A stretch of 64,000 bases of DNA from an uncultured Kangiella sp. (GTDB lineage Bacteria > Pseudomonadota > Gammaproteobacteria > Enterobacterales > Kangiellaceae). The notes under the pieces are model-generated. The model was given only the letters and a program-made list of their open reading frames with translations, did no database searches and was not told the origin of the DNA. Below, piece after piece: positions 52,506-64,000 of the stretch (the first letter of the stretch is position 1; every line of letters starts with the position of its first letter). The translations under genes and the position numbers were made by a program. The stretch covers positions 1-64,000 of the forward strand of contig CATNCP010000008.1 of the NCBI GenBank assembly GCA_950096615.1, written 5' to 3'.

Positions 52506-52553
52506 CTTTTCTTTGCCCCGCAGGGATTCCCGGTGGTCAGACGCAAAGAAAAG
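52506..52553. repeat. Inverted repeat, candidate dispersed repeat element
   Basis: CTTTTCTTTGC-N26-GCAAAGAAAAG perfect 11-bp arms upstream of uppP. Confidence 0.55.
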
Positions 52554-52593
52554 GGTAAGGAATTATCAATATAAACAACACAGAGTAATAAAT

Positions 52594-53415
52594 ATGGATT
52601 GGCTTCAGGCGGTATTTTTAGCATTGATTCAAGGACTTACTGAGTTCTTGCCGATTTCGAGTTCGGCGCATTTGATTCTGACGTCGAAGGTTTTAGGTTG
52701 GCAGGATCAGGGCTTGGCGTTTGATGTTGCTGTACATGTGGGTACTTTAACGGCGGTAATGATCTATTTCCGTAAAGAGATTGTGGAGATGGTTGTTGCT
52801 TGGTTTGGTTCTGTGACGGGGAAAGGGGCTACACCAAACTCGCGATTAGCGTGGGCGGTAATTTGGGGCACGATCCCTGTTGGTTTGTTCGGCTTGTTTC
52901 TAGAAGCTTTTGATATTGTTGATAATTATCTCCGCTCTATTCCCGTCATTGCGGCGACGACCATTATTTTTGGTTTGTTGTTGGGCTTTGCAGAAACCAG
53001 GTATAATGGAAAAAAGCCTCGAGACTTTAAAAACGAGTACGATTTAAGATTACGCGATGTGTTTACTATTGGTGTGGCGCAGGCATTGGCATTAATTCCG
53101 GGAACTTCGCGTTCAGGTATTACCATGACGGCAGCTGCGATGTTAGGTTTTTCGAGAACGGCGGCAGCGCGGTATTCTTTCTTGTTATCGATTCCAGCGA
53201 TTTTATTGCCCGGTGGCCTAAAGGGATATCAGTTGGTTGAAGAGGGCGCTAAGTTCGATTGGAGCTTTTTGATTCTGGGCATTATCGTTTCAGCAGTGAG
53301 CGCATTTGCTTGTATTCACTTCTTCTTAAAGTGGCTTGAAAAAATTGGCTTTATGCCTTTCGTCTGGTATCGCTTAGCGCTCGGTATCGGCTTACTGATA
53401 CTGTTCTATAGTTAG
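52594..53415 (+). CDS. uppP: Undecaprenyl-diphosphatase
   Basis: MDWLQAVFLALIQGLTEFLPISSSAHL, PGTSRSGITM. Confidence 0.98.
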   Translation: MDWLQAVFLALIQGLTEFLPISSSAHLILTSKVLGWQDQGLAFDVAVHVGTLTAVMIYFRKEIVEMVVAWFGSVTGKGATPNSRLAWAVIWGTIPVGLFGLFLEAFDIVDNYLRSIPVIAATTIIFGLLLGFAETRYNGKKPRDFKNEYDLRLRDVFTIGVAQALALIPGTSRSGITMTAAAMLGFSRTAAARYSFLLSIPAILLPGGLKGYQLVEEGAKFDWSFLILGIIVSAVSAFACIHFFLKWLEKIGFMPFVWYRLALGIGLLILFYS

Positions 53416-53438
53416 AAAGCGGCTTATTCAGCCGCTTT
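53416..53438. terminator. Bidirectional terminator overlapping the cca 3' end
   Basis: AAAGCGGCT-TATTC-AGCCGCTTT followed by T-rich sequence. Confidence 0.75.
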
Positions 53439-54659
53439 TTCTTTTTCCAGAACTGACTTTATTCGACGAATCTGCTCACGCTCAATAGCCTCGCCCAGTT
53501 TCGCACCTTCGTAGCCACGTTCAATAAAAGGTTGTGCATCAACTTTCTTAGAGATTTGGAAGCATTGACGAAGTAAGTCTCCCTGTGGATAGGGATTATC
53601 TTCGAGTCCTAAGCGGCCATTAAAGTCTGCTTCACAAGCTAAAATAAATTGCTCAAGGATGCTTTCTTTTTTATAAGCGCCGATAGACTTTAAAACTTTG
53701 TGTACAGTTTTGGGGCGCAGTTCGAACATTTTATGGCAGTGTAGGTGAAAGCGAGAAACCTGAATCGCAAGGTTCTGATAGTCCTTTGGTGCTTTAATTC
53801 TCTTGCAAAGCTTTTTAATTAAAGGAACCCCTGCTTCCTCGTGACCACGGTGTTGTGGCCATTGCTCTTCAGGCGTGACGCCTTTACCAAGATCATGAAC
53901 CACTGATGCGAAGCGAACGCAAATATCATCGGTCTTACGTGCGGCCTGTTCCAGAACCATCATAGTATGGATGCCCGTATCGATCTCGGGGTGCCACTTT
54001 TCTGGGTTTGGAATTCCCCATAAAACATCAATTTCAGGGAAAAGAACCTTCAAGGCTCCACAGTCTCGAAGAACTTCAAAGTAGACTTGAGGTGATTGAG
54101 TTGATAAAGCTTTGTGTGTTTCCACCCATACTCGTTCAACGGTTAAATACTCAAGCTCACCTTGGTTGGTTAGCTCGGTCATCAGCGCTAAGGTTTCTGG
54201 TGCTATAGTAAAGTCTAAATGATGGAACCGAGCCGCGAAGCGAGCGACACGCAATACGCGTAACGGATCTTCAGCAAAAGCTGGTGATATGTGCCTAAGG
54301 ACCTTGAGCTGTAGGTCTTTTTGCCCCTTGTATGGGTCCACTAAAGTGCCGTCTTCATGCTGCGCTATGGCGTTAATGGTTAAATCACGGCGCTGTAAAT
54401 CCTGTTCAAGGGTAATATCCGAGGAGAAGTTGACTTCAAAACCCTTATAACCACGACCAGATTTACGTTCGGTTCTGGCTAGAGCGTATTCCTCACCAGT
54501 TTCAGGGTGTAGGAATACAGGGAAGTCTTTCCCAACCTCTTTGAAGCCCTGCTGTTTCATCGCATCAGGAGTCGCTCCGACTACAACATAGTCATGATCA
54601 ACGACCGCTAAGCCGAGCAAATGGTCACGCACAGCGCCGCCTACAAGGTAAACTTCCAT
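53424..54659 (-). CDS. cca: Multifunctional CCA tRNA nucleotidyltransferase
   Basis: MEVYLVGGAVRDHLLG, DHDYVVVGATP, RRDLTINAIA, HD domain VVHDLGKG. Confidence 0.97.
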   Translation of the reverse strand: MEVYLVGGAVRDHLLGLAVVDHDYVVVGATPDAMKQQGFKEVGKDFPVFLHPETGEEYALARTERKSGRGYKGFEVNFSSDITLEQDLQRRDLTINAIAQHEDGTLVDPYKGQKDLQLKVLRHISPAFAEDPLRVLRVARFAARFHHLDFTIAPETLALMTELTNQGELEYLTVERVWVETHKALSTQSPQVYFEVLRDCGALKVLFPEIDVLWGIPNPEKWHPEIDTGIHTMMVLEQAARKTDDICVRFASVVHDLGKGVTPEEQWPQHRGHEEAGVPLIKKLCKRIKAPKDYQNLAIQVSRFHLHCHKMFELRPKTVHKVLKSIGAYKKESILEQFILACEADFNGRLGLEDNPYPQGDLLRQCFQISKKVDAQPFIERGYEGAKLGEAIEREQIRRIKSVLEKEKAAE

Positions 54660-54662
54660 AAA

Positions 54663-55127
54663 CTAGCTACAAACCTGAGTATTAGGGTTCTTTGCCATAC
54701 AGTGTAACAGGGTGTTGAGCTTTGGATCAGCTTTGTGGCAATTTTTTAAAGTGACTTGTTTTTTTAAGTTTTCTAGTTCGGTAAGTTTGTCGGCAAACTG
54801 CATATCATCAATGCTCCCTTGCGCTAATTCTTTCTCGATAGCCTTCTTATGGCCGGAATAGCTACTGCTAAAATGACCTATGGCCATTTTGCATTGATTG
54901 CTACTAAGAGGCTTCGTTTTCACGGGACGAGGCATCTGGATGATGTTCATATTATTCAGGTTTTGCGGTTTAGCCTTAATTCGCTTATCTTTAGGTGGCT
55001 TGTCCGAGTAATGGGTATTACCGTCCTTATCGACCCATTTATAGATTTTAGCGGGGCAATGCAGTGCGGCAAGGCTTAAGGCTAGAAGTAATAATGTGCG
55101 GCTTCCTGCAAGACATCTTGTGATCAT
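54663..55127 (-). CDS. DUF4124 domain-containing exported protein
   Basis: signal peptide, IYKWVDKDGNTHYSDKPP; internal Met start chosen. Confidence 0.85.
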   Translation of the reverse strand: MITRCLAGSRTLLLLALSLAALHCPAKIYKWVDKDGNTHYSDKPPKDKRIKAKPQNLNNMNIIQMPRPVKTKPLSSNQCKMAIGHFSSSYSGHKKAIEKELAQGSIDDMQFADKLTELENLKKQVTLKNCHKADPKLNTLLHCMAKNPNTQVCS

Positions 55128-55229
55128 AGCAATTGTACCGATCGTGGCTTTGTCATATATTACCCATAATAAGCAAAGCCTGAAACTTAAACAATAACTG
55201 CTCATTCATAGTGTGAGCGGCATTTATGT

Positions 55230-56930
55230 ATGTATAACGATTTTTTTGGATTCAAAAGTTCACCATTTACCATTGCGCCCGATCCTCGCTTTTTATTCAT
55301 GAGCGAGCGACACCGCGATGCTTTGGCGCATTTGCTTTACGGCATAGGCTCTGGCGGTGGCTTTGTTATGCTAACCGGGGAAGTGGGAACGGGTAAAACA
55401 ACCGTATGCCGCTGCTTATTAGAGCAACTGTCCAGTGACGTTCGTCTTGCCTATATCCTAAACCCAAAGCTGGATGCTATTGAGCTAATGGCAACCATGT
55501 GTGATGAATTGGGAATTCGTTATCAGCCGGGTGAAAAAAGTTTAAAAGCATTTACTGACTTATTAAGGGATTACCTGCTCGCTAATCACAAGAAAGGCCT
55601 CAATACCGTATTGATGATCGACGAGGCTCAAAATCTGAGCGTTGAGGTGATGGAGCAGATTCGCTTACTAACTAACTTAGAGACCAACGATAGAAAGTTA
55701 TTACAGATTATTCTTATCGGTCAGCCTGAACTACAGGAACTACTCGCCAAGAAAGAGCTGCGTCAATTAGCGCAAAGAATCACCGCTCGTTACCACTTGA
55801 AGCCCCTTAACTTGAATGAGACCGCTTCTTATATTGAGCATCGCTTGCGTATCGCTGGCCTACAACGACCACTTTTTAAATCTGCTTCCGTCAAAAAAAT
55901 TCACCAAGCGAGTGGCGGTATTCCACGATTGATCAATGTTATTTCAGACCGGTCGCTGCTCGGAGCTTTTGTTGAAAAGAAAAATGCTGTCACAGAGCCT
56001 ATCGTTAGAAGAGCTATTCCGGAAGTATTAGGTCATAACCACCCAGCAGTTCGTCAGAGCAGCAAAAGCTCTCGACTGATTTGGTTTGGCTTCGCCATAA
56101 CATTGTTATTGGCGGTTACAGCTTATTTGGTTATTACACAGTATCCTCAGAAAATTAAACAGCAAACGGTTGCTGAACCTACTGGAGAAGCTGTAGAAAA
56201 CCGTGGGCAACTTGACAGAAGCTCTGGTAAGCAAAAAAACGAAGTAAGCAATAGTTATGAAAAAAGTAATGACCAAGTCGCTCAAGAATTATGGGGCGAT
56301 CAAGGCTGGGATCGAAGTGGCTTAACATCCTCACGAAATTTATTTGCGCTATGGGGGGTGAGTTACTACCCCTATCAATCATCTAAGCCGTGTGACTTTG
56401 CACAAGACTATAACCTGAGCTGCGATTCAGGTGTAGCTGATTGGGACTATATTAAGCAGCTAAACAGACCTTTGAACTTAAAGTTTTCCACTAAAGAGTC
56501 AGGTGTTTTCTGGGGGACTTTGAAATCAATCCATGGTGAAAGTTTAGTGCTACAGTTTGGTGATAATGAAGTCCGCATGTCGCGAAAAAAGCTAAACCCA
56601 TTGTGGCAGGGTGAATACCAACTTTTTTGGAAAATGCCAGATGGTTTTGTTGAGCACACTAAGTTTGGTGATTCTGGGCCAGTAGTTCGCTGGCTAACAG
56701 ATGCAATCTATAATATTGATCACGTTAACATTACTCCAGCAGATCGCTTCACGAAGAAGGTTGAGGATTGGTTGATGTTATTTCAAATGGAGAATGGGTT
56801 AGTGGCAGATGGAATTTTAGGGAAGCACTCGGTGATAATGATTAATAATGAAGTGGTGACAAACATTCCAAAGTTGTTGCAGCAGCCATCAATACAAGGC
56901 TCTTCTTCAAAGCATCAGAGGGGCTACTAA
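55230..56930 (+). CDS. gspA: GspA/ExeA-like AAA ATPase with C-terminal peptidoglycan-binding region
   Basis: MYNDFFGFKSSPFTIAPDPRFLFMSERHRDALAHLLYGI, GEVGTGKTT; central TM. Confidence 0.93.
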   Translation: MYNDFFGFKSSPFTIAPDPRFLFMSERHRDALAHLLYGIGSGGGFVMLTGEVGTGKTTVCRCLLEQLSSDVRLAYILNPKLDAIELMATMCDELGIRYQPGEKSLKAFTDLLRDYLLANHKKGLNTVLMIDEAQNLSVEVMEQIRLLTNLETNDRKLLQIILIGQPELQELLAKKELRQLAQRITARYHLKPLNLNETASYIEHRLRIAGLQRPLFKSASVKKIHQASGGIPRLINVISDRSLLGAFVEKKNAVTEPIVRRAIPEVLGHNHPAVRQSSKSSRLIWFGFAITLLLAVTAYLVITQYPQKIKQQTVAEPTGEAVENRGQLDRSSGKQKNEVSNSYEKSNDQVAQELWGDQGWDRSGLTSSRNLFALWGVSYYPYQSSKPCDFAQDYNLSCDSGVADWDYIKQLNRPLNLKFSTKESGVFWGTLKSIHGESLVLQFGDNEVRMSRKKLNPLWQGEYQLFWKMPDGFVEHTKFGDSGPVVRWLTDAIYNIDHVNITPADRFTKKVEDWLMLFQMENGLVADGILGKHSVIMINNEVVTNIPKLLQQPSIQGSSSKHQRGY

Positions 56931-57631
56931 TGTCATATATTCTAGATGCTCTAAAGAAAAACAAATCAAAAGACGAGCAGGGCGAGGTCCCTGATTTATC
57001 CAGCGAGCACGCATATCACGAGTTCGAAGAAGAGAAGAGCATCACCCGATGGGTTTGGCCTGTGGTTGTTATGTTGCTGGTTTTAATTATTGGTGTATTG
57101 GGTTTTATGTTGCTGAATCCTTCTGCAAAAGAGGTTTCAGAGCAGTGGACACAAAAAAATCCGAACTCTTCTCAATTACAAGAAAGGTCTTCCGAATCTT
57201 CTGTAGTAGCCACGGGCAAGCCTTTAACTCCTAATAAAGCTACTTCTGACGCTAATGAGGACAGTAGGGCGGAAGGTGACACACAAATTGTGAATAAACC
57301 ACTTGAAGTATCAGAGCCCGTTGTACAGAAAGTTAAGCGCCGGGTAACCAGTAACACTAGGGACCCTAACCAAAGTCCAAGTAATGTTACAAAACAGGAA
57401 TCTGAACCTGCCGTTACTAAAGCCGACTTGCCAGCCTTAGTGTACACCACTCACATATACGCGACTCAACCTAAGGACCGCTTTGTGATGATTAATGGTA
57501 GAGCTTTAGCTGAAGGTGACACTATCAGTGATAAGTTGAAGGTTAAAGAAATATTGGAGAACGACTTGGTGGTGACCTATCAAGGCCAGGAATTTGTACT
57601 ACCTAGCCTTGAAGATGTGAATGTTGATTAG
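56930..57631 (+). CDS. gspB: GspB-like general secretion pathway protein
   Basis: MSYILDALKKNKSKDEQGEVP N-terminus, single TM, C-terminal GspB-like domain. Confidence 0.9.
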   Translation: MSYILDALKKNKSKDEQGEVPDLSSEHAYHEFEEEKSITRWVWPVVVMLLVLIIGVLGFMLLNPSAKEVSEQWTQKNPNSSQLQERSSESSVVATGKPLTPNKATSDANEDSRAEGDTQIVNKPLEVSEPVVQKVKRRVTSNTRDPNQSPSNVTKQESEPAVTKADLPALVYTTHIYATQPKDRFVMINGRALAEGDTISDKLKVKEILENDLVVTYQGQEFVLPSLEDVNVD

Positions 57632-58977
57632 TACGACCAACGAGCATTGCGTCGAACCGGCGCATTGAGCCAAAGCGCTAAATACATATCGCTACTAAAT
57701 TTATCATCTTGTTCAGATAAAATACCATTGCTGATAAAGTCTTGATGGAGCATATCTAAAACGACATCTAAGCCCATGGCATTATAGCCAGCATCGTTTT
57801 TTTGATAGAGTTTTAGTAGACCTGATAGCAGCTCTTTTTTACTGGTAAATTGCACTTTAAAGACTTTGCCAGACTGACTATCGGTAATTTCAGTGCTTGA
57901 TGGCTCCAAAGGACGAGGAACATGCTCGCGAATTTTATCATCAACATATTCGGCGTATTCATAGCTCGATTTTACAGACAACATTAAGTGTTTATCACGC
58001 TTGTCTATGAGGTGCGTATCTTCTTCTGTGCTCTGTTGTTCTTTTTCCGCTTGTAATGATGCAAAGTTAATAACGCTATCGCTACCAGTCAGATCTTTAA
58101 AGGCAGTCATCACTTGATTTTTTGAGTTAGGTAGACACTTCCAGTACGGAATATATTCGTACTTGCCTAAGGTTTCTATCATGCCCCATTCAATCAATAG
58201 ACGAATGGCTTTATGTCTTGCATCAACGATTGAATGTGAAACGGCATATCCAAGAGAGTTACCATCGACACTGATACCATAGCTTCTATCGTGACCGCGC
58301 TGGAACAGCTGTACGGTATTTGTTGAGCTACTGTGGTTAACAATATCGCCAACAAAACCGTGAGCAGTATAAAAATCCATGGTCATTCGAGCTGTATTCT
58401 TATCATCGAAACGACTAAGCTCGAGCTCGGTCTCACCGGTGCCGCCACCTACTTCTATCGAAGCGTCTCGTGAACGACGTGCGTTACGAATAAAACGATC
58501 ATACTCGGTTAGAGCACCATAAATCTGGATGGTGTCTTGACGGTAATGACTAGCGCCATAAGTATTAAAAAATGGATCCTTTTTACCGGGAGTCGCACCA
58601 TACTGGTAAGCGCTAATAATTTCTGTATCTTTTGGGATATGTACTAAACGAACGGGGCCGCCAATTTTCGAAGCGATACTTAATGCCATATTGGTAAAGT
58701 CATTCGGGATTTCGCTATTGGGATACTGTACGGTTGAAACATTGGTTGAATCGTTAACTGAAACTATAGCGATACGTAGGGGCTCAATGGTTCCATTGCC
58801 TGCAGCAAATCGGTACTCGGTTAGCATATCGCCAAAGCAACTCAAATAATCCGTAGTGGAGGTCTTTGTCTGCTTTGGATACTCTAGTTTTTTTGAAAAT
58901 TCAGTTGTCGTAGTAGAAACCGCACAGCCATTTATCATAGCGGCAACGGCAATGACTAAAAGTCCTTTTCTCATCAT
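57628..58977 (-). CDS. CsgG/HfaB-like outer-membrane lipoprotein with ~150-aa C-terminal extension
   Basis: lipobox INGCAV; order of features matches CsgG/HfaB: IAIVSVNDSTN, IYGALTEYD, MTMDFYTAHGFVGDIVNHSSSTNTVQLFQRG, HKAIRLLIEWGMIETLGKY. Confidence 0.65.
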   Translation of the reverse strand: MMRKGLLVIAVAAMINGCAVSTTTTEFSKKLEYPKQTKTSTTDYLSCFGDMLTEYRFAAGNGTIEPLRIAIVSVNDSTNVSTVQYPNSEIPNDFTNMALSIASKIGGPVRLVHIPKDTEIISAYQYGATPGKKDPFFNTYGASHYRQDTIQIYGALTEYDRFIRNARRSRDASIEVGGGTGETELELSRFDDKNTARMTMDFYTAHGFVGDIVNHSSSTNTVQLFQRGHDRSYGISVDGNSLGYAVSHSIVDARHKAIRLLIEWGMIETLGKYEYIPYWKCLPNSKNQVMTAFKDLTGSDSVINFASLQAEKEQQSTEEDTHLIDKRDKHLMLSVKSSYEYAEYVDDKIREHVPRPLEPSSTEITDSQSGKVFKVQFTSKKELLSGLLKLYQKNDAGYNAMGLDVVLDMLHQDFISNGILSEQDDKFSSDMYLALWLNAPVRRNARWSY

Positions 58978-58989
58978 GCTCTCCTAACC

Positions 58990-59382
58990 TTATCGCTTAA
59001 TAGCTATTGGGTTTCCTGAGCCGTCGTTGTAGATGATTAATTCATCCGCATCAACGCCAGGTAACACAAACACACTACCGTTTGCGGTTGGAATAATGTA
59101 CTCGTCTAACTCCTGAAGGATGTCTCTCCCTTCACGAATTGATTTCTTAACTGTGCCAATAATATCTGCTTTGATATAAGGGATATTGATTAGGTCAGCG
59201 CCATAACGACCGTAGAAACTGGTTGCTTTGCTGCCTAAACTTTTAGCTTGGTAACGCTCGTTAGCACTGGATTCTGTAGATGCGAATAAAAGTGCATGGA
59301 AGACACTAAGAAAACAAATACTCTTCAAAAGCAGTTTCTTGTCTCGTCCTCCTTGAAGAAAAGATAATGTTTTTGTGTTCAT
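58990..59382 (-). CDS. Small exported protein of unknown function in the CsgG-like operon
   Basis: signal peptide LLLKSICFLSVFHALLFASTESSANE; start chosen at internal Met preceded by an RBS. Confidence 0.75.
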   Translation of the reverse strand: MNTKTLSFLQGGRDKKLLLKSICFLSVFHALLFASTESSANERYQAKSLGSKATSFYGRYGADLINIPYIKADIIGTVKKSIREGRDILQELDEYIIPTANGSVFVLPGVDADELIIYNDGSGNPIAIKR

Positions 59383-59438
59383 AATTGTCTCCTTAATGTT
59401 TCCATGCGGCTGGTAGTGACCAGTGGGCAAAATAAAGC

Positions 59439-59777
59439 TTAGAAGCCGTATCCTGCATTAATCACAACAGAGCCAGCATTAGCTGCACCAATAGCTAAAG
59501 CACCGCGGCTTTTGTTGTGAATGACAGTTTTTTTGCGGCAAGGACAGCCGTTAACTACAACAGAACCTGCGTTTGCACGCTTACCTGATGCATATAAAAA
59601 GCTTTCTGAATATGAAAAGCCGTCATCGCTCGCTGAAGCTGCTAACATTTCGCCGCCTACAGCAACTGCATCACGTGAATCATTCATGACAACTAGCTTT
59701 CCACGTTCGTGAGCTGTGGCTGCTGAACCAGCAGCTGCAAGCAATGCAGCAATTGATAAAGTCGTTAATAATTTCAT
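59439..59777 (-). CDS. Small secreted beta-repeat-like protein (paralog 2)
   Basis: 112 aa; signal peptide MKLLTTLSIAALLAAAGSAATAHE; near-identical flanks to the upstream paralog; RBS GGAGA. Confidence 0.85.
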   Translation of the reverse strand: MKLLTTLSIAALLAAAGSAATAHERGKLVVMNDSRDAVAVGGEMLAASASDDGFSYSESFLYASGKRANAGSVVVNGCPCRKKTVIHNKSRGALAIGAANAGSVVINAGYGF

Positions 59778-59809
59778 AATAATCTCCATTTATTCAAAAT
59801 ATTGTTGCT

Positions 59810-59831
59810 GAGCCGCTAAGGTTAGCGACTC
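59810..59831 (-). other. Intercistronic hairpin between the two secreted paralogs
   Basis: GAGCCGCTAA-GG-TTAGCGACTC, 9/10 complementary. Confidence 0.5.
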
Positions 59832-59854
59832 TACTATCGCAACGTTATAATCGA

Positions 59855-60193
59855 TTACAGATCAAGACCTGCGTTGATCACAACTGAACCTGCGTTTGCT
59901 CCACCAATTGCTAGAGCGCCACGGCTTTTGTTATGAATAACGGTTTTTTTGCGGCATGGGCATCCATTAACCACAACAGAACCTGCATTTGCACGTTGGC
60001 CAGCCATTTCTAAATAAGAACCGCTAGCACTGAACCAGTTTGCAGAGAAGTTTTCAGAGATGATTTCACCGCCAACAGCAGTTGCATCTCTTGAATCATT
60101 CATAACGACCAATTTGCCACGCTCGTGAGCTGTTGCAGCTGATCCAGCAACAGCAAGTAGTGCAGCCAAAGATAATGTTGTTAATAGTTTCAT
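59855..60193 (-). CDS. Small secreted beta-repeat-like protein (paralog 1)
   Basis: 112 aa; signal peptide MKLLTTLSLAALLAVAGSAATAHE; strong AGGAGG RBS. Confidence 0.87.
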   Translation of the reverse strand: MKLLTTLSLAALLAVAGSAATAHERGKLVVMNDSRDATAVGGEIISENFSANWFSASGSYLEMAGQRANAGSVVVNGCPCRKKTVIHNKSRGALAIGGANAGSVVINAGLDL

Positions 60194-60514
60194 TACATCC
60201 TCCTAATTAGGATAGTTTTCCATGATACTCATTACTGAGTTATTTACTTTCCCTAGAACACTCTAGGCTTTCACTACCAATGTAATTTAAAAGCAAATTA
60301 CGATTAAAAATGTATACCCAAAAAGAATATAAAAGTAGGTGTCGAAAAAAATGACATGTTAGGAGGTGCTAATAAATTACTTTTAATGCAGTTTTGACTT
60401 GGATTGGGACTTAAGGTGAGGTTTGGGGGTGATCAAGTAGGCAAAAAGCAGCATAAAACTGTTTCATATCTGATACAGATTTGACAAGACGTGTCATAGG
60501 TGTCGGCTTTTTTA

Positions 60515-61975
60515 TCAACTTAACGCAGTAAATACCTTATCTCTTACTAGGTCTCTTGGTAAATTATTTTTTAATTTTTTACCGAGGTGTTTAGCCAAGC
60601 CTAAAGGCATGCCCTGATAAGTCACGATCACTTCTTTGTGTCGTGGTTGTTGATTGGGATGCTCTAGAAAGATATCTTTGCCCTGATAGTAATCACGAGC
60701 TTGCTCTGACGTTAATGCTATCGTTTGTTGCGTAAACTGTTGACCAAAACTTATGACGGCTTGGTGTTGCAGTTTAGGTCCATGTTTATTCAGCTCAAAA
60801 AGCTTGATACCAAAGCGGTTGAGTTTGAACTGTTGGTTGAGCGATTCCATAGAGTCATTGACCAACCATACTTCCTCATTTTTTCCGCGATTAGATTTGC
60901 TCTTTAATTCGCTTTTAAGAGTCGCAATATCCCAACCAAAGATATCGCAGTATGACTCCAATAGCTGGTAGGTTTTATGCGGCAACTCGCTGAACTTTTG
61001 GTACTTTGCATCACTAGGAGTTTGTTTTGTTGATTGCACCGTTTGGGACTTTTCAAAACAGGCGACAAAGAATCCCTCACAGTCATAAGTATTAGGATAA
61101 ACATGGAGGTATCCTTCCTCAGTGATGGCTTTGTCTGCGCCCTCAAATAAACCAGCGAGTGATTTTATCGAAATATCATCACCATAGTTTTGAAGTAAAT
61201 AACGACAGACATCTTGGTTTTCTTCTTTGGAGAGTGTGCAGGTGGAATAAACCAGTCGGCCGCCGGGCTTGAGCGCCTGGTAAGCGCTACAGATTAATTC
61301 TTTCTGCAAGTCAGAGATTGACTGCACTGATGCAATATCCCAGTTCGCCAAAGCTTGCTCATCTTTACGGACCGTGCCTTCGCCGCCACATGGAGCGTCG
61401 AGCAATATGGCATCGAAGAACTGCGGTGTTTTTTCTCCAAACAAACGACCATCGGCGTGACTTAACGCGGTATTTTTAACGCCACATCGTTGAAGGTTGT
61501 GATGCAAGCCCTTCAGCCGAGAAGAAGACAGTTCATTGGCGACTATGAGTCCCTGGTTATTCAGCTGGGCTGCGAGTTGTGTGGTCTTTGAGCCTGGTGC
61601 TGCCGCCAGATCGAGGAACGTCGAATTTTCTGAATAGCTAAAGTTATGTAATAACGCTTTTACGGGTAGCATCGAACTGGCTTCTTGAATATAGCACTGC
61701 CCTTGTAGGTGAGGTAACCAGTTGCCAAGATTGTCTGGCAGTGATTTTGTCGACTCGTCAACCCAAAAACCTTCATCGCACCATGGAATCTGAATGAGTT
61801 GATAACCTAAGCTTTCAAGTTCTAAGCGGAGTTTTTCTGGCGTAGAATTGAGTAAGTTAGCTCTGAGACTTTTTCGCAAAGGACGTTGGCAAGCTTCCAG
61901 AAACTCTTCGAGTGTAATCTGAGTTGGGAGCTGTTTTTCTATGTGTTGGATAAAGTCTGGTGAAATGTGAGCCAT
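60515..61975 (-). CDS. rsmF: 16S rRNA (cytosine-5) methyltransferase RsmF
   Basis: LDLAAAPGSKTTQLAAQL, LDAPCGGEGTVRKD, YSTCTLSKEEN; C-terminal RsmF-type extension. Confidence 0.93.
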   Translation of the reverse strand: MAHISPDFIQHIEKQLPTQITLEEFLEACQRPLRKSLRANLLNSTPEKLRLELESLGYQLIQIPWCDEGFWVDESTKSLPDNLGNWLPHLQGQCYIQEASSMLPVKALLHNFSYSENSTFLDLAAAPGSKTTQLAAQLNNQGLIVANELSSSRLKGLHHNLQRCGVKNTALSHADGRLFGEKTPQFFDAILLDAPCGGEGTVRKDEQALANWDIASVQSISDLQKELICSAYQALKPGGRLVYSTCTLSKEENQDVCRYLLQNYGDDISIKSLAGLFEGADKAITEEGYLHVYPNTYDCEGFFVACFEKSQTVQSTKQTPSDAKYQKFSELPHKTYQLLESYCDIFGWDIATLKSELKSKSNRGKNEEVWLVNDSMESLNQQFKLNRFGIKLFELNKHGPKLQHQAVISFGQQFTQQTIALTSEQARDYYQGKDIFLEHPNQQPRHKEVIVTYQGMPLGLAKHLGKKLKNNLPRDLVRDKVFTALS

Positions 61976-62001
61976 GTTAATTTCTCGTGCTACTGATACA
62001 G

Positions 62002-62028
62002 AAAAGGCACAGACGAGCTGTGCCTTTT
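62002..62028 (-). terminator. Terminator downstream of putA
   Basis: AAAAGGCACAG-ACGAG-CTGTGCCTTTT perfect 11-bp stem. Confidence 0.85.
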
Positions 62029-62050
62029 ACTGATTTTACCACAAGGGCAA

Positions 62051-64000
62051 CTATGAGTCTTTTTGCAAAAACTCAGGAGTAACGTCTTCGTCACCAAGCG
62101 AAAGCAAGGTTGCGTTACCGCCAATAGCCGCTGTGTTATTAGTACGAGTGTGTTCGGTTGCAAAGCGGTATAGGTAGAATGGACCACCTGCTTTCGGCCC
62201 CGTACCTGATAAACCTTGACCACCAAACGGCTGAACGCCTACGGTCGCGCCAATCATGTTACGGTTGATGTAAACGTTACCAACGCGTGCTCGCTTGTCG
62301 ATATACATGGCTGTCGCTTCGTTGCGAGAATGTACGCCCAGCGTTAAGCCGAAACCATAGTCGTTGATTTGGTCAATCACATTATCCAAGTCTTTCGCTT
62401 TATAGCGAACAATATGGACGATAGGGCCGAACCACTCCTGATCCAAATCGTTAATGTGATCAATTTCAAACGCTACTGGTGATAAGAAGCTACCGTGACC
62501 TTCCAAACCTTCTGGCATTGGCGTTTCAGCAATGAATTTACCTGCTGCTTTTAGTTCATCGATATGGCTCTGTAGTTCTTCGCGAGCGGCTACATCGATG
62601 ACTGGACCTACGTCTGTCGACAAGTCGGTAGGATTGCCTAAGCGTAGTTCTTGCATCGCGCCTGAAAGTACTTCGATGATTTTGTCCGCGATGTCTTCCT
62701 GTAAATATAAAACGCGAAGTGCTGAACAGCGCTGTCCCGCACTAGTAAAGGCTGAGTGGATAACATCTTCAACCACTTGCTCAGGTAGTGCTGAGCTGTC
62801 GACGATCATAGCGTTCTGACCGCCAGTCTCTGCAATTAGTGGTGACAACATGCCATCACGAGTTGCCAAGGTGCGGTTGATTGTATGAGCTGTGGTCGTA
62901 GAGCCTGTGAAAGCAACACCAGCAACTCGGTTATCCGACAAAATGACGTTACCTAATACAGAACCACGGATTGGAACAAACTGCAGAACGCTGGTTGGGA
63001 TACCCGCTTCATGCATGATTTGCACGGCGCGATACGCCACCAAAGTCGTTTGGTCTGCTGGCTTAGCGATAACTGTGTTACCCGCAACTAGCGCTGCAGC
63101 GACTTGGCCAATGAAAATAGCTAAAGGGAAGTTCCAAGGACTGATGCAAGCGAATACGCCGCGACCTTGAAGGTACAGGTCATTACTTTCGCCGGTAGGG
63201 CCTGGTAAATGAATTTCATGACCAAATTGGTTACGAGCGTTGTAAGCATAATAACGACAGAAGTCGATAGCTTCGCGAACTTCATCGATGCCGTCTTGAA
63301 CACTTTTACCACCATCGCGGCTACACAAGGCAATTAATTCGTGCTTATGTGCTTCTAAGGCGTCGGCGACATTATCAAGCAATGCAGAGCGCTGCTGAAC
63401 TGGCGTAACGTCCCAAGCGATAAAGTTTTCATGGGCGACGCTCAAAGCCTTAAGAGCTTGCTCTTCAGTGGCCTTATGAACCGTACCGACAGTATGGCTG
63501 TGGTCGTAAGGACAAATGACTTGCTCTTCGTTGCTGGTAAATTCTTGACCGTCAATGATTGGCTTTGCATGCCATTGGTTATCTAAGAAATGTTTGACCT
63601 GGTTCATAAAAGGCTCTATCTCACTATGAATATGTAAATTGGTACCGCTCGAATTTATACGCATTTCACCAAAGTCTTCGTACAGATGTGGTGGTAGCGG
63701 AATTCGATCATTGTGCAAGGTTTCGAAGCTTTTCAGCGTCTCACACGGATGTTCGACTAGTTCAGAAATAGCGGTATTTTCATCAACCAATTGATGTACA
63801 AAAGAAGTATTGGCACCATTTTCCAGTAGACGCCTTACGAGGTAAGGCAGCAAATCTTTATGATTGCCCACTGGAGCGTAAATTCGACAACTGATATCAG
63901 GGTACTGCTTTAGAACAAGATCATAAAGCGATTCGCCCATACCGTGTAAACGTTGGAATTCGAACTCACGATTACCGCCAGCCATATCGAGAATGCTGAA
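62051..64000 (-). CDS. putA: Bifunctional proline dehydrogenase/L-glutamate gamma-semialdehyde dehydrogenase, C-terminal part (truncated by window edge)
   Basis: PRODH C-terminal FQRLHGMGESLYD...RIYAPVGNHKDLLPYLVRRLLENGANTSFV, then ALDH domain (AETGGQNAMIVDSSALPEQVV, SAGQRCSALRVLY); frame stays open to 64000. Confidence 0.96.
   Translation of the reverse strand, partial: FSILDMAGGNREFEFQRLHGMGESLYDLVLKQYPDISCRIYAPVGNHKDLLPYLVRRLLENGANTSFVHQLVDENTAISELVEHPCETLKSFETLHNDRIPLPPHLYEDFGEMRINSSGTNLHIHSEIEPFMNQVKHFLDNQWHAKPIIDGQEFTSNEEQVICPYDHSHTVGTVHKATEEQALKALSVAHENFIAWDVTPVQQRSALLDNVADALEAHKHELIALCSRDGGKSVQDGIDEVREAIDFCRYYAYNARNQFGHEIHLPGPTGESNDLYLQGRGVFACISPWNFPLAIFIGQVAAALVAGNTVIAKPADQTTLVAYRAVQIMHEAGIPTSVLQFVPIRGSVLGNVILSDNRVAGVAFTGSTTTAHTINRTLATRDGMLSPLIAETGGQNAMIVDSSALPEQVVEDVIHSAFTSAGQRCSALRVLYLQEDIADKIIEVLSGAMQELRLGNPTDLSTDVGPVIDVAAREELQSHIDELKAAGKFIAETPMPEGLEGHGSFLSPVAFEIDHINDLDQEWFGPIVHIVRYKAKDLDNVIDQINDYGFGLTLGVHSRNEATAMYIDKRARVGNVYINRNMIGATVGVQPFGGQGLSGTGPKAGGPFYLYRFATEHTRTNNTAAIGGNATLLSLGDEDVTPEFLQKDS

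Follow-up and report, generated by a model that had tools for sequence, protein, structure and literature searches.

A compact operon in Kangiella probably encodes a dedicated system for protein export and surface assembly, organised around an outer membrane lipoprotein pore of the CsgG/HfaB type; the lipoprotein is inherited together with two repeat proteins that bear signal peptides and with a third exported protein. A sequence-only reading of the window (the whole stretch of 64,000 nucleotides that was analysed, from a contig of an uncultured Kangiella sp.) had described a compact minus-strand operon of four genes, encoding two paralogues of 112 aa, a protein of about 130 aa and a lipoprotein of 449 aa, and the four open reading frames are present just as described (Table 1). 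Their order of transcription on the minus strand (60193→57628) is A, B, gene 3, lipoprotein, and a Shine-Dalgarno-like sequence stands before each. Within the intergenic region 5' of the operon no sigma-70 site rose above chance and there was no Rfam match; a terminator scan of the operon region gave nothing above chance.

Table 1. Genes and other features of the operon, in positions of the window
Feature	Position	Strand	Description
Small secreted repeat protein A	59855..60193	minus	112 aa; signal peptide, two repeat units, CPC motif between the units
Small secreted repeat protein B	59439..59777	minus	112 aa from the ATG at 59777; paralogue of A
Gene 3, exported protein	58990..59382	minus	130 aa; without a known family
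CsgG/HfaB superfamily lipoprotein	57628..58977	minus	449 aa; CsgG-like domain at about residues 1-288, then a C-terminal part of about 160 aa without an assigned domain
Four long predicted beta strands, candidate membrane-spanning hairpins	58225..58530	minus	AlphaFold2, pLDDT 44-89
Intergenic region 5' of the operon	60194..60514		Strong Shine-Dalgarno sequence TTAGGAGGA

Among 61 genomes of relatives, the lipoprotein is found in five of the 20 Kangiella genomes and in none of the 41 others, and its two nearest database records are 91 and 86% identical across the whole protein. Those five genomes also have both small genes and gene 3 (the L004 contig ends inside the operon; the G002 contig ends inside small protein B). 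Had the small proteins commonly been found without the lipoprotein gene, the idea of a joint system would have suffered; their families are confined to the same five of 61 relatives, with one weak match in 369 genomes of the class. That match to the small-protein profile, inside a 1,508-aa open reading frame in G376 (E 6e-4), was judged chance or compositional, and gene 3 has, beyond the five genomes, only three chance-level matches (E 0.03-0.1). No homologue of the lipoprotein or of small protein A was found in a plasmid collection, and none of the small proteins in viral contigs. Since five Kangiella species have an intact operon and dN/dS is low (0.04-0.27 where measurable, indicating purifying selection), we take the four genes to be real; for the lipoprotein pN is 0.08 against a pS of 0.87, with dS saturated.

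The lipoprotein carries a lipobox visible by inspection (..INGC-AV..), in which Cys18 is invariant after ..NG or SG and is followed at +2 by Ala or Ser in all five orthologues, the combination from which sorting to the outer membrane is predicted. Neither as a single sequence nor as a five-row profile does it match anything in Pfam, NCBIfam or the PDB, weak PDB matches such as hnRNP L (E 0.14) being chance; the HfaB equivalog model NF037935 does not match it, and the Pfam CsgG model PF03783, proposed earlier as a check, matches neither the 449-aa protein nor anything else in the genome, an E. coli control genome being positive. With a single sequence that matches nothing, the first suggestion of a CsgG/HfaB protein was therefore a guess, and the tie to the superfamily comes from profile-profile bridging.

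The bridge was supplied by a search of the class with the five-row profile, in which six distant homologues emerged with E-values from 1.6e-26 to 1.4e-7; joint-profile searches enlarged these to 41 proteins, and many further matches covering the C-terminal half only, apparently the DUF4384 part, were left out of the operon counts. Those distant homologues whose domains were scanned are longer lipoproteins that carry PG_binding_1 and DUF4384 domains at the C-terminus, and some of them give CsgG matches below threshold; the closest homologues reach up to about 27% identity with the Kangiella protein. Nine of the 41 proteins in the bridging set, in which two HfaB rows are included, match Pfam CsgG, and for one bridging member there is a direct match to the NCBIfam model of HfaB (E 2e-4). 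In profile-profile comparisons (hhalign) the Kangiella lipoprotein aligns with the bridging homologues at 99.8% (E 7e-30), and these align with 30 HfaB sequences picked by NF037935 at 99.0% (E 4e-18, 242 columns), with classical CsgG at 96.9% (E 2e-10, 234 columns) and with other CsgG-fold lipoproteins at 94.2% (E 1e-7, 162 columns only); the reversed-sequence controls all gave 0.7% or less. The direct comparison of Kangiella with HfaB is collinear over 254 columns and gives 22% (E 1e-3), so that the link to HfaB hangs on the intermediates. Judged by these profiles and via these intermediates, the lipoprotein is a very divergent member of the CsgG/HfaB superfamily, and HfaB is a nearer relative of it than CsgG.

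The fold was predicted with AlphaFold2 from a 41-row alignment, which held two HfaB rows and no CsgG rows, and the resulting model is of moderate confidence (pLDDT 64.7, pTM 0.48); a model from five close orthologues reached pLDDT 35 and was discarded. CsgG forms a nonameric 36-stranded barrel (PMC7304575), and four long strands in the model (residues 150-176, 183-206, 218-237 and 240-251) are, with moderate confidence, the pattern expected of CsgG's two membrane hairpins. A structural match to CsgG or HfaB had been named beforehand as a test of the proposal, and in a Foldseek search of the PDB the 25 best matches are all CsgG chains (E 1.2e-9 to 1e-4, TM-score by target 0.39-0.68), followed by Helicobacter HpaA. 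The predicted structure and the bridging family agree on the CsgG/HfaB reading, and together they point to a protein that is probably an outer membrane export pore.

Small proteins A and B share 79% identity and are rich in Gly, Ala and Val. By inspection, they and the gene 3 protein have Sec-type signal sequences, which in the 112-aa proteins are alanine-rich and end in A-T-A. The sequence-only reading was right that canonical curlin repeats are absent, as Pfam confirms, but overlooked an internal two-fold repeat: a first copy, K.V..N.SR.A.A.GG-(25-aa insert)-ANAGSVV.N, is followed by CPC and then by a copy free of the insert. The half-to-half alignment score was equalled in 0-13 of 2,000 shuffles for each of the eight Kangiella small proteins, among which the 25-aa insert is variable and the cysteine pair invariant. 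The Kangiella repeat also aligns with a repeat of about 37 aa in the small proteins of distant operons (for example KNSTITNKSTVKNAANLAIS..GKAEANQGSIKI; hhalign E 1.3e-4, 54%; reversed control 0.2%), and a repeat HMM gave two of the eight Kangiella proteins a score that one shuffle in 4,854 reached, the two proteins of L007 having no score. A hint of a beta-solenoid comes from one small protein of the distant operons, which is matched by a left-handed beta-helix model (PF24894, E 2.6e-6). Pfam gave no match of the small proteins or gene 3 to curlin (PF07012), CsgE or CsgF, which bears out the earlier remark that CsgE and CsgF are missing from the operon; a Pox_A12 match of a small protein (E 0.016) was set aside as chance. 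No similarity to 30 HfaA sequences was found for the small proteins or gene 3 (hhalign, 0.6% or less). From their signal sequences and repeats, A and B are probable exported substrates. Gene 3 occupies the position that an exported protein of about 100-178 aa holds in the distant operons, its alignment with these proteins is not significant (hhalign 3.7%, E 0.012), and it is a probable accessory protein or second substrate.

The layout recurs in many other Proteobacteria. The gene-neighbourhood survey that the earlier reading had called for revealed, by a tally made by inspection, one or more repeat proteins, a small exported protein and a CsgG/HfaB-like lipoprotein on one strand in 29 of the 41 distant loci; three of the remaining 12 are cut by contig ends, and in others at least one partner was not found. 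The five Kangiella loci follow the same order, with L004 cut by its contig end. The shortest of the distant repeat proteins have about 100 aa and often come as tandem pairs or triplets of paralogues; the longest reach 1,214-1,285 aa (L097, L098). These Pseudomonadota operons (L031-L036, L097-L129) resemble that of Kangiella in layout, in lipoprotein homology and in having similar repeats, and differ from it in the sequence of gene 3 and in that many of their lipoproteins have C-terminal PG-binding and DUF4384 domains, whereas the Kangiella lipoprotein has neither. A broader proposal, for which we think the chances somewhat below even, is that CsgG/HfaB export has, besides curli and the holdfast anchor, a widespread and so far undescribed third branch to which such operons belong. 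This branch would have its own repeat (x-[IV]-x-N-x-S-x-x-A-x-A-x-G...A-N-x-G-S-[IV]-x-[IV]), an accessory protein of its own that replaces CsgE/CsgF, and substrates with anything from two repeats (about 100 aa) to dozens of them (about 1,285 aa); in many Gamma- and other Proteobacteria it would build fibres or coats on the cell surface.

The repeat proteins found 5' of lipoprotein homologues, with lengths of as much as 1,285 aa, have the look of surface proteins and not of periplasmic factors, which speaks against the main rival to an export pore. According to that rival, which we regard as unlikely, the CsgG-fold lipoprotein is a structural or scaffolding outer membrane lipoprotein that acts in the periplasm, the small proteins stay in the periplasm or associate with peptidoglycan, and there is no export. 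CsgG-fold lipoproteins without a role in export do exist (LpoB/FlgO-like proteins, for example); Pfam CsgG takes in many non-secretory lipoproteins, look-alikes of which turned up in the homologue search, and a scaffold would suit both the peptidoglycan-binding domain found in 14 of the 41 bridging rows, with DUF4384 in the full-length ones scanned, and the weakness of the direct match between the Kangiella and HfaB profiles. However, the bridging family is nearer to HfaB and CsgG than to the other CsgG-fold lipoproteins by the E-values given above, and it is against the latter that the Kangiella protein has its lowest profile score (1.5%); the four long strands of the model are of the membrane-inserted type, and the lipoprotein is strictly linked to secreted repeat proteins.

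Among known systems, the holdfast anchor HfaABD of Caulobacter contains the nearest known relative of the lipoprotein, HfaB, homologous at superfamily level via the intermediates, and a small secreted partner is a shared trait: in the HfaB locus L150 a gene for small secreted HfaA lies directly 5' of HfaB. The partners of HfaB are surface-exposed and HfaA is multimeric (PMC6707917). It is conceivable on these grounds, although a little less so than a periplasmic scaffold, that the Kangiella operon makes a holdfast-like anchor that tethers exopolysaccharide to the outer membrane and forms no fibre of its own. The composition of the operon does not favour this, for it has no gene resembling hfaA or hfaD, its small proteins and gene 3 being unlike HfaA (NF037934), and holdfast synthesis genes were not seen among the open reading frames listed at 52513-64000. 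The order also differs (A-B-D in Caulobacter; A-A'-gene 3-lipoprotein, with two tandem small paralogues, in Kangiella), as does the lipoprotein, with its C-terminal extension of about 160 aa.

Curli have in common with the operon the CsgG fold and homology of the lipoprotein, and repeat-bearing small substrates of which CsgA and CsgB are likewise paralogues; the differences are the lack of PF03783 from the Kangiella genome and of the curlin repeat, CsgE and CsgF from the operon, and a different repeat consensus. In the passages available from a 2012 curli survey, CsgG sits in a larger family with many non-curli members, and an operon of the Kangiella type is not described (PMC3521004). An Acinetobacter island has a CsgG-like lipoprotein operon of other make-up, with three lipoproteins (PMC3224125), and a 2026 nanopore resource gives a broad list of CsgG-like proteins and names neither Kangiella nor HfaB in its main text (PMC13397529). 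Open-access searches did not find Kangiella together with CsgG, or DUF4384 together with CsgG, and papers on Kangiella and amyloid are by their titles on other subjects. The earlier claim that the operon is undescribed can thus be upheld provisionally, for the open-access literature as distinct from subscription papers and preprints.

Purifying selection on the operon is strong and the repeats of the small proteins are common to much longer multi-repeat surface proteins of the sister operons, both of which argue against taking the two paralogues for a two-component contact-dependent antimicrobial, exported or displayed, as is known from Cdz of Caulobacter. Paired secreted small paralogues rich in Gly, Ala and Val, with a variable 25-aa insert, do recall such a system; the operon includes neither an immunity gene nor type I secretion genes, and we consider this explanation very improbable.

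On the favoured reading of a dedicated export and surface-assembly system, Sec would, by homology, take all four proteins across the inner membrane. The lipoprotein would proceed to the outer membrane and oligomerise there to a pore, each subunit contributing two beta hairpins (CsgG has nine subunits), and the two small repeat proteins would traverse it unfolded and then, at the cell surface, stack or assemble into a fibre or coat like a beta-solenoid, an assembly that disulfides of the invariant CPC motif might lock. The 130-aa protein would stand in for CsgE/CsgF or for HfaA/HfaD, either by working at the pore or by promoting assembly or nucleation. We infer from such a scheme that the small proteins may form fibres or amyloid.

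Few routes are known by which unfolded proteins can cross the outer membrane with no source of energy, and pores of the CsgG type are one of them; CsgG also serves as a commercial nanopore scaffold. A branch that differs in its cargo repeats and in its partner protein, if it exists, would separate what is essential (the pore) from what is replaceable (CsgE/CsgF and the curlin repeat), and would provide new candidates for functional amyloids in environmental bacteria, marine ones among them. With four genes and 112-aa substrates, the Kangiella operon is compact enough to be transplanted into another host.

Downstream, the operon converges with gspA-gspB at 55230-57631 (Pfam T2SSB, PF16537, E 6e-21), the stop codons of the lipoprotein gene and gspB overlapping by a few bases. 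This neighbourhood is kept in all five Kangiella genomes that carry the operon and could suggest that the small proteins are substrates of type II secretion, an idea to which we give the least credence since the convergent gspAB is not co-transcribed with the operon and is not evident among the open reading frames around the two distant operons that were listed widely. Upstream, a gene at 60515-61975 is, by inspection, rRNA methyltransferase-like.

At two distant loci with a CsgG/HfaB-like lipoprotein gene (L097 and L098), the secreted proteins consist of a repeat (..ISQSGNQARDIRAGGGSA..ANAV.L) present in dozens of copies, whose core, Q.GN.A, is curlin-like, and the long repeat gene is immediately followed downstream by gene 3, for an exported protein, and the lipoprotein gene. 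Several distant small repeat proteins (L113, L114 and L106) have a CxxC pair at or close to the C-terminal end (for example NNGCQACN and NNGCVTCY), whereas a CPC is invariant in those of Kangiella; cysteine pairs seem recurrent across operons of the repeat protein/gene 3/lipoprotein type.

Features of the window and of a distant locus
Feature	Location	Strand	Remark
Secreted repeat protein, 1,214 aa	L097:980-4624	+	equivalent gene in L098, 1,285 aa
Two small repeat protein genes	window 59439-60193	-	paralogues
gspA and gspB	window 55230-57631		adjoin the operon, convergent with it

Between the window and L005, another Kangiella locus, orthologues of the small genes are more alike than paralogues; in the Kangiella loci L006 and L007 the two paralogues of each locus are more alike one another than to their orthologues, a pattern that points to gene conversion or repeated duplication. 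Synonymous divergence is higher in the lipoprotein gene than in both small genes of the window, whose lower values may reflect codon bias from high expression.

The predicted structure of the lipoprotein is matched by a protein of an uncultured Caudovirales phage annotated as CsgG (BFVD A0A6J5RM04, E 2e-9), indicating that CsgG-like pores occur in phages too. The adjoining, convergent placement of gspA and gspB is found in all Kangiella genomes carrying the operon (5/5).
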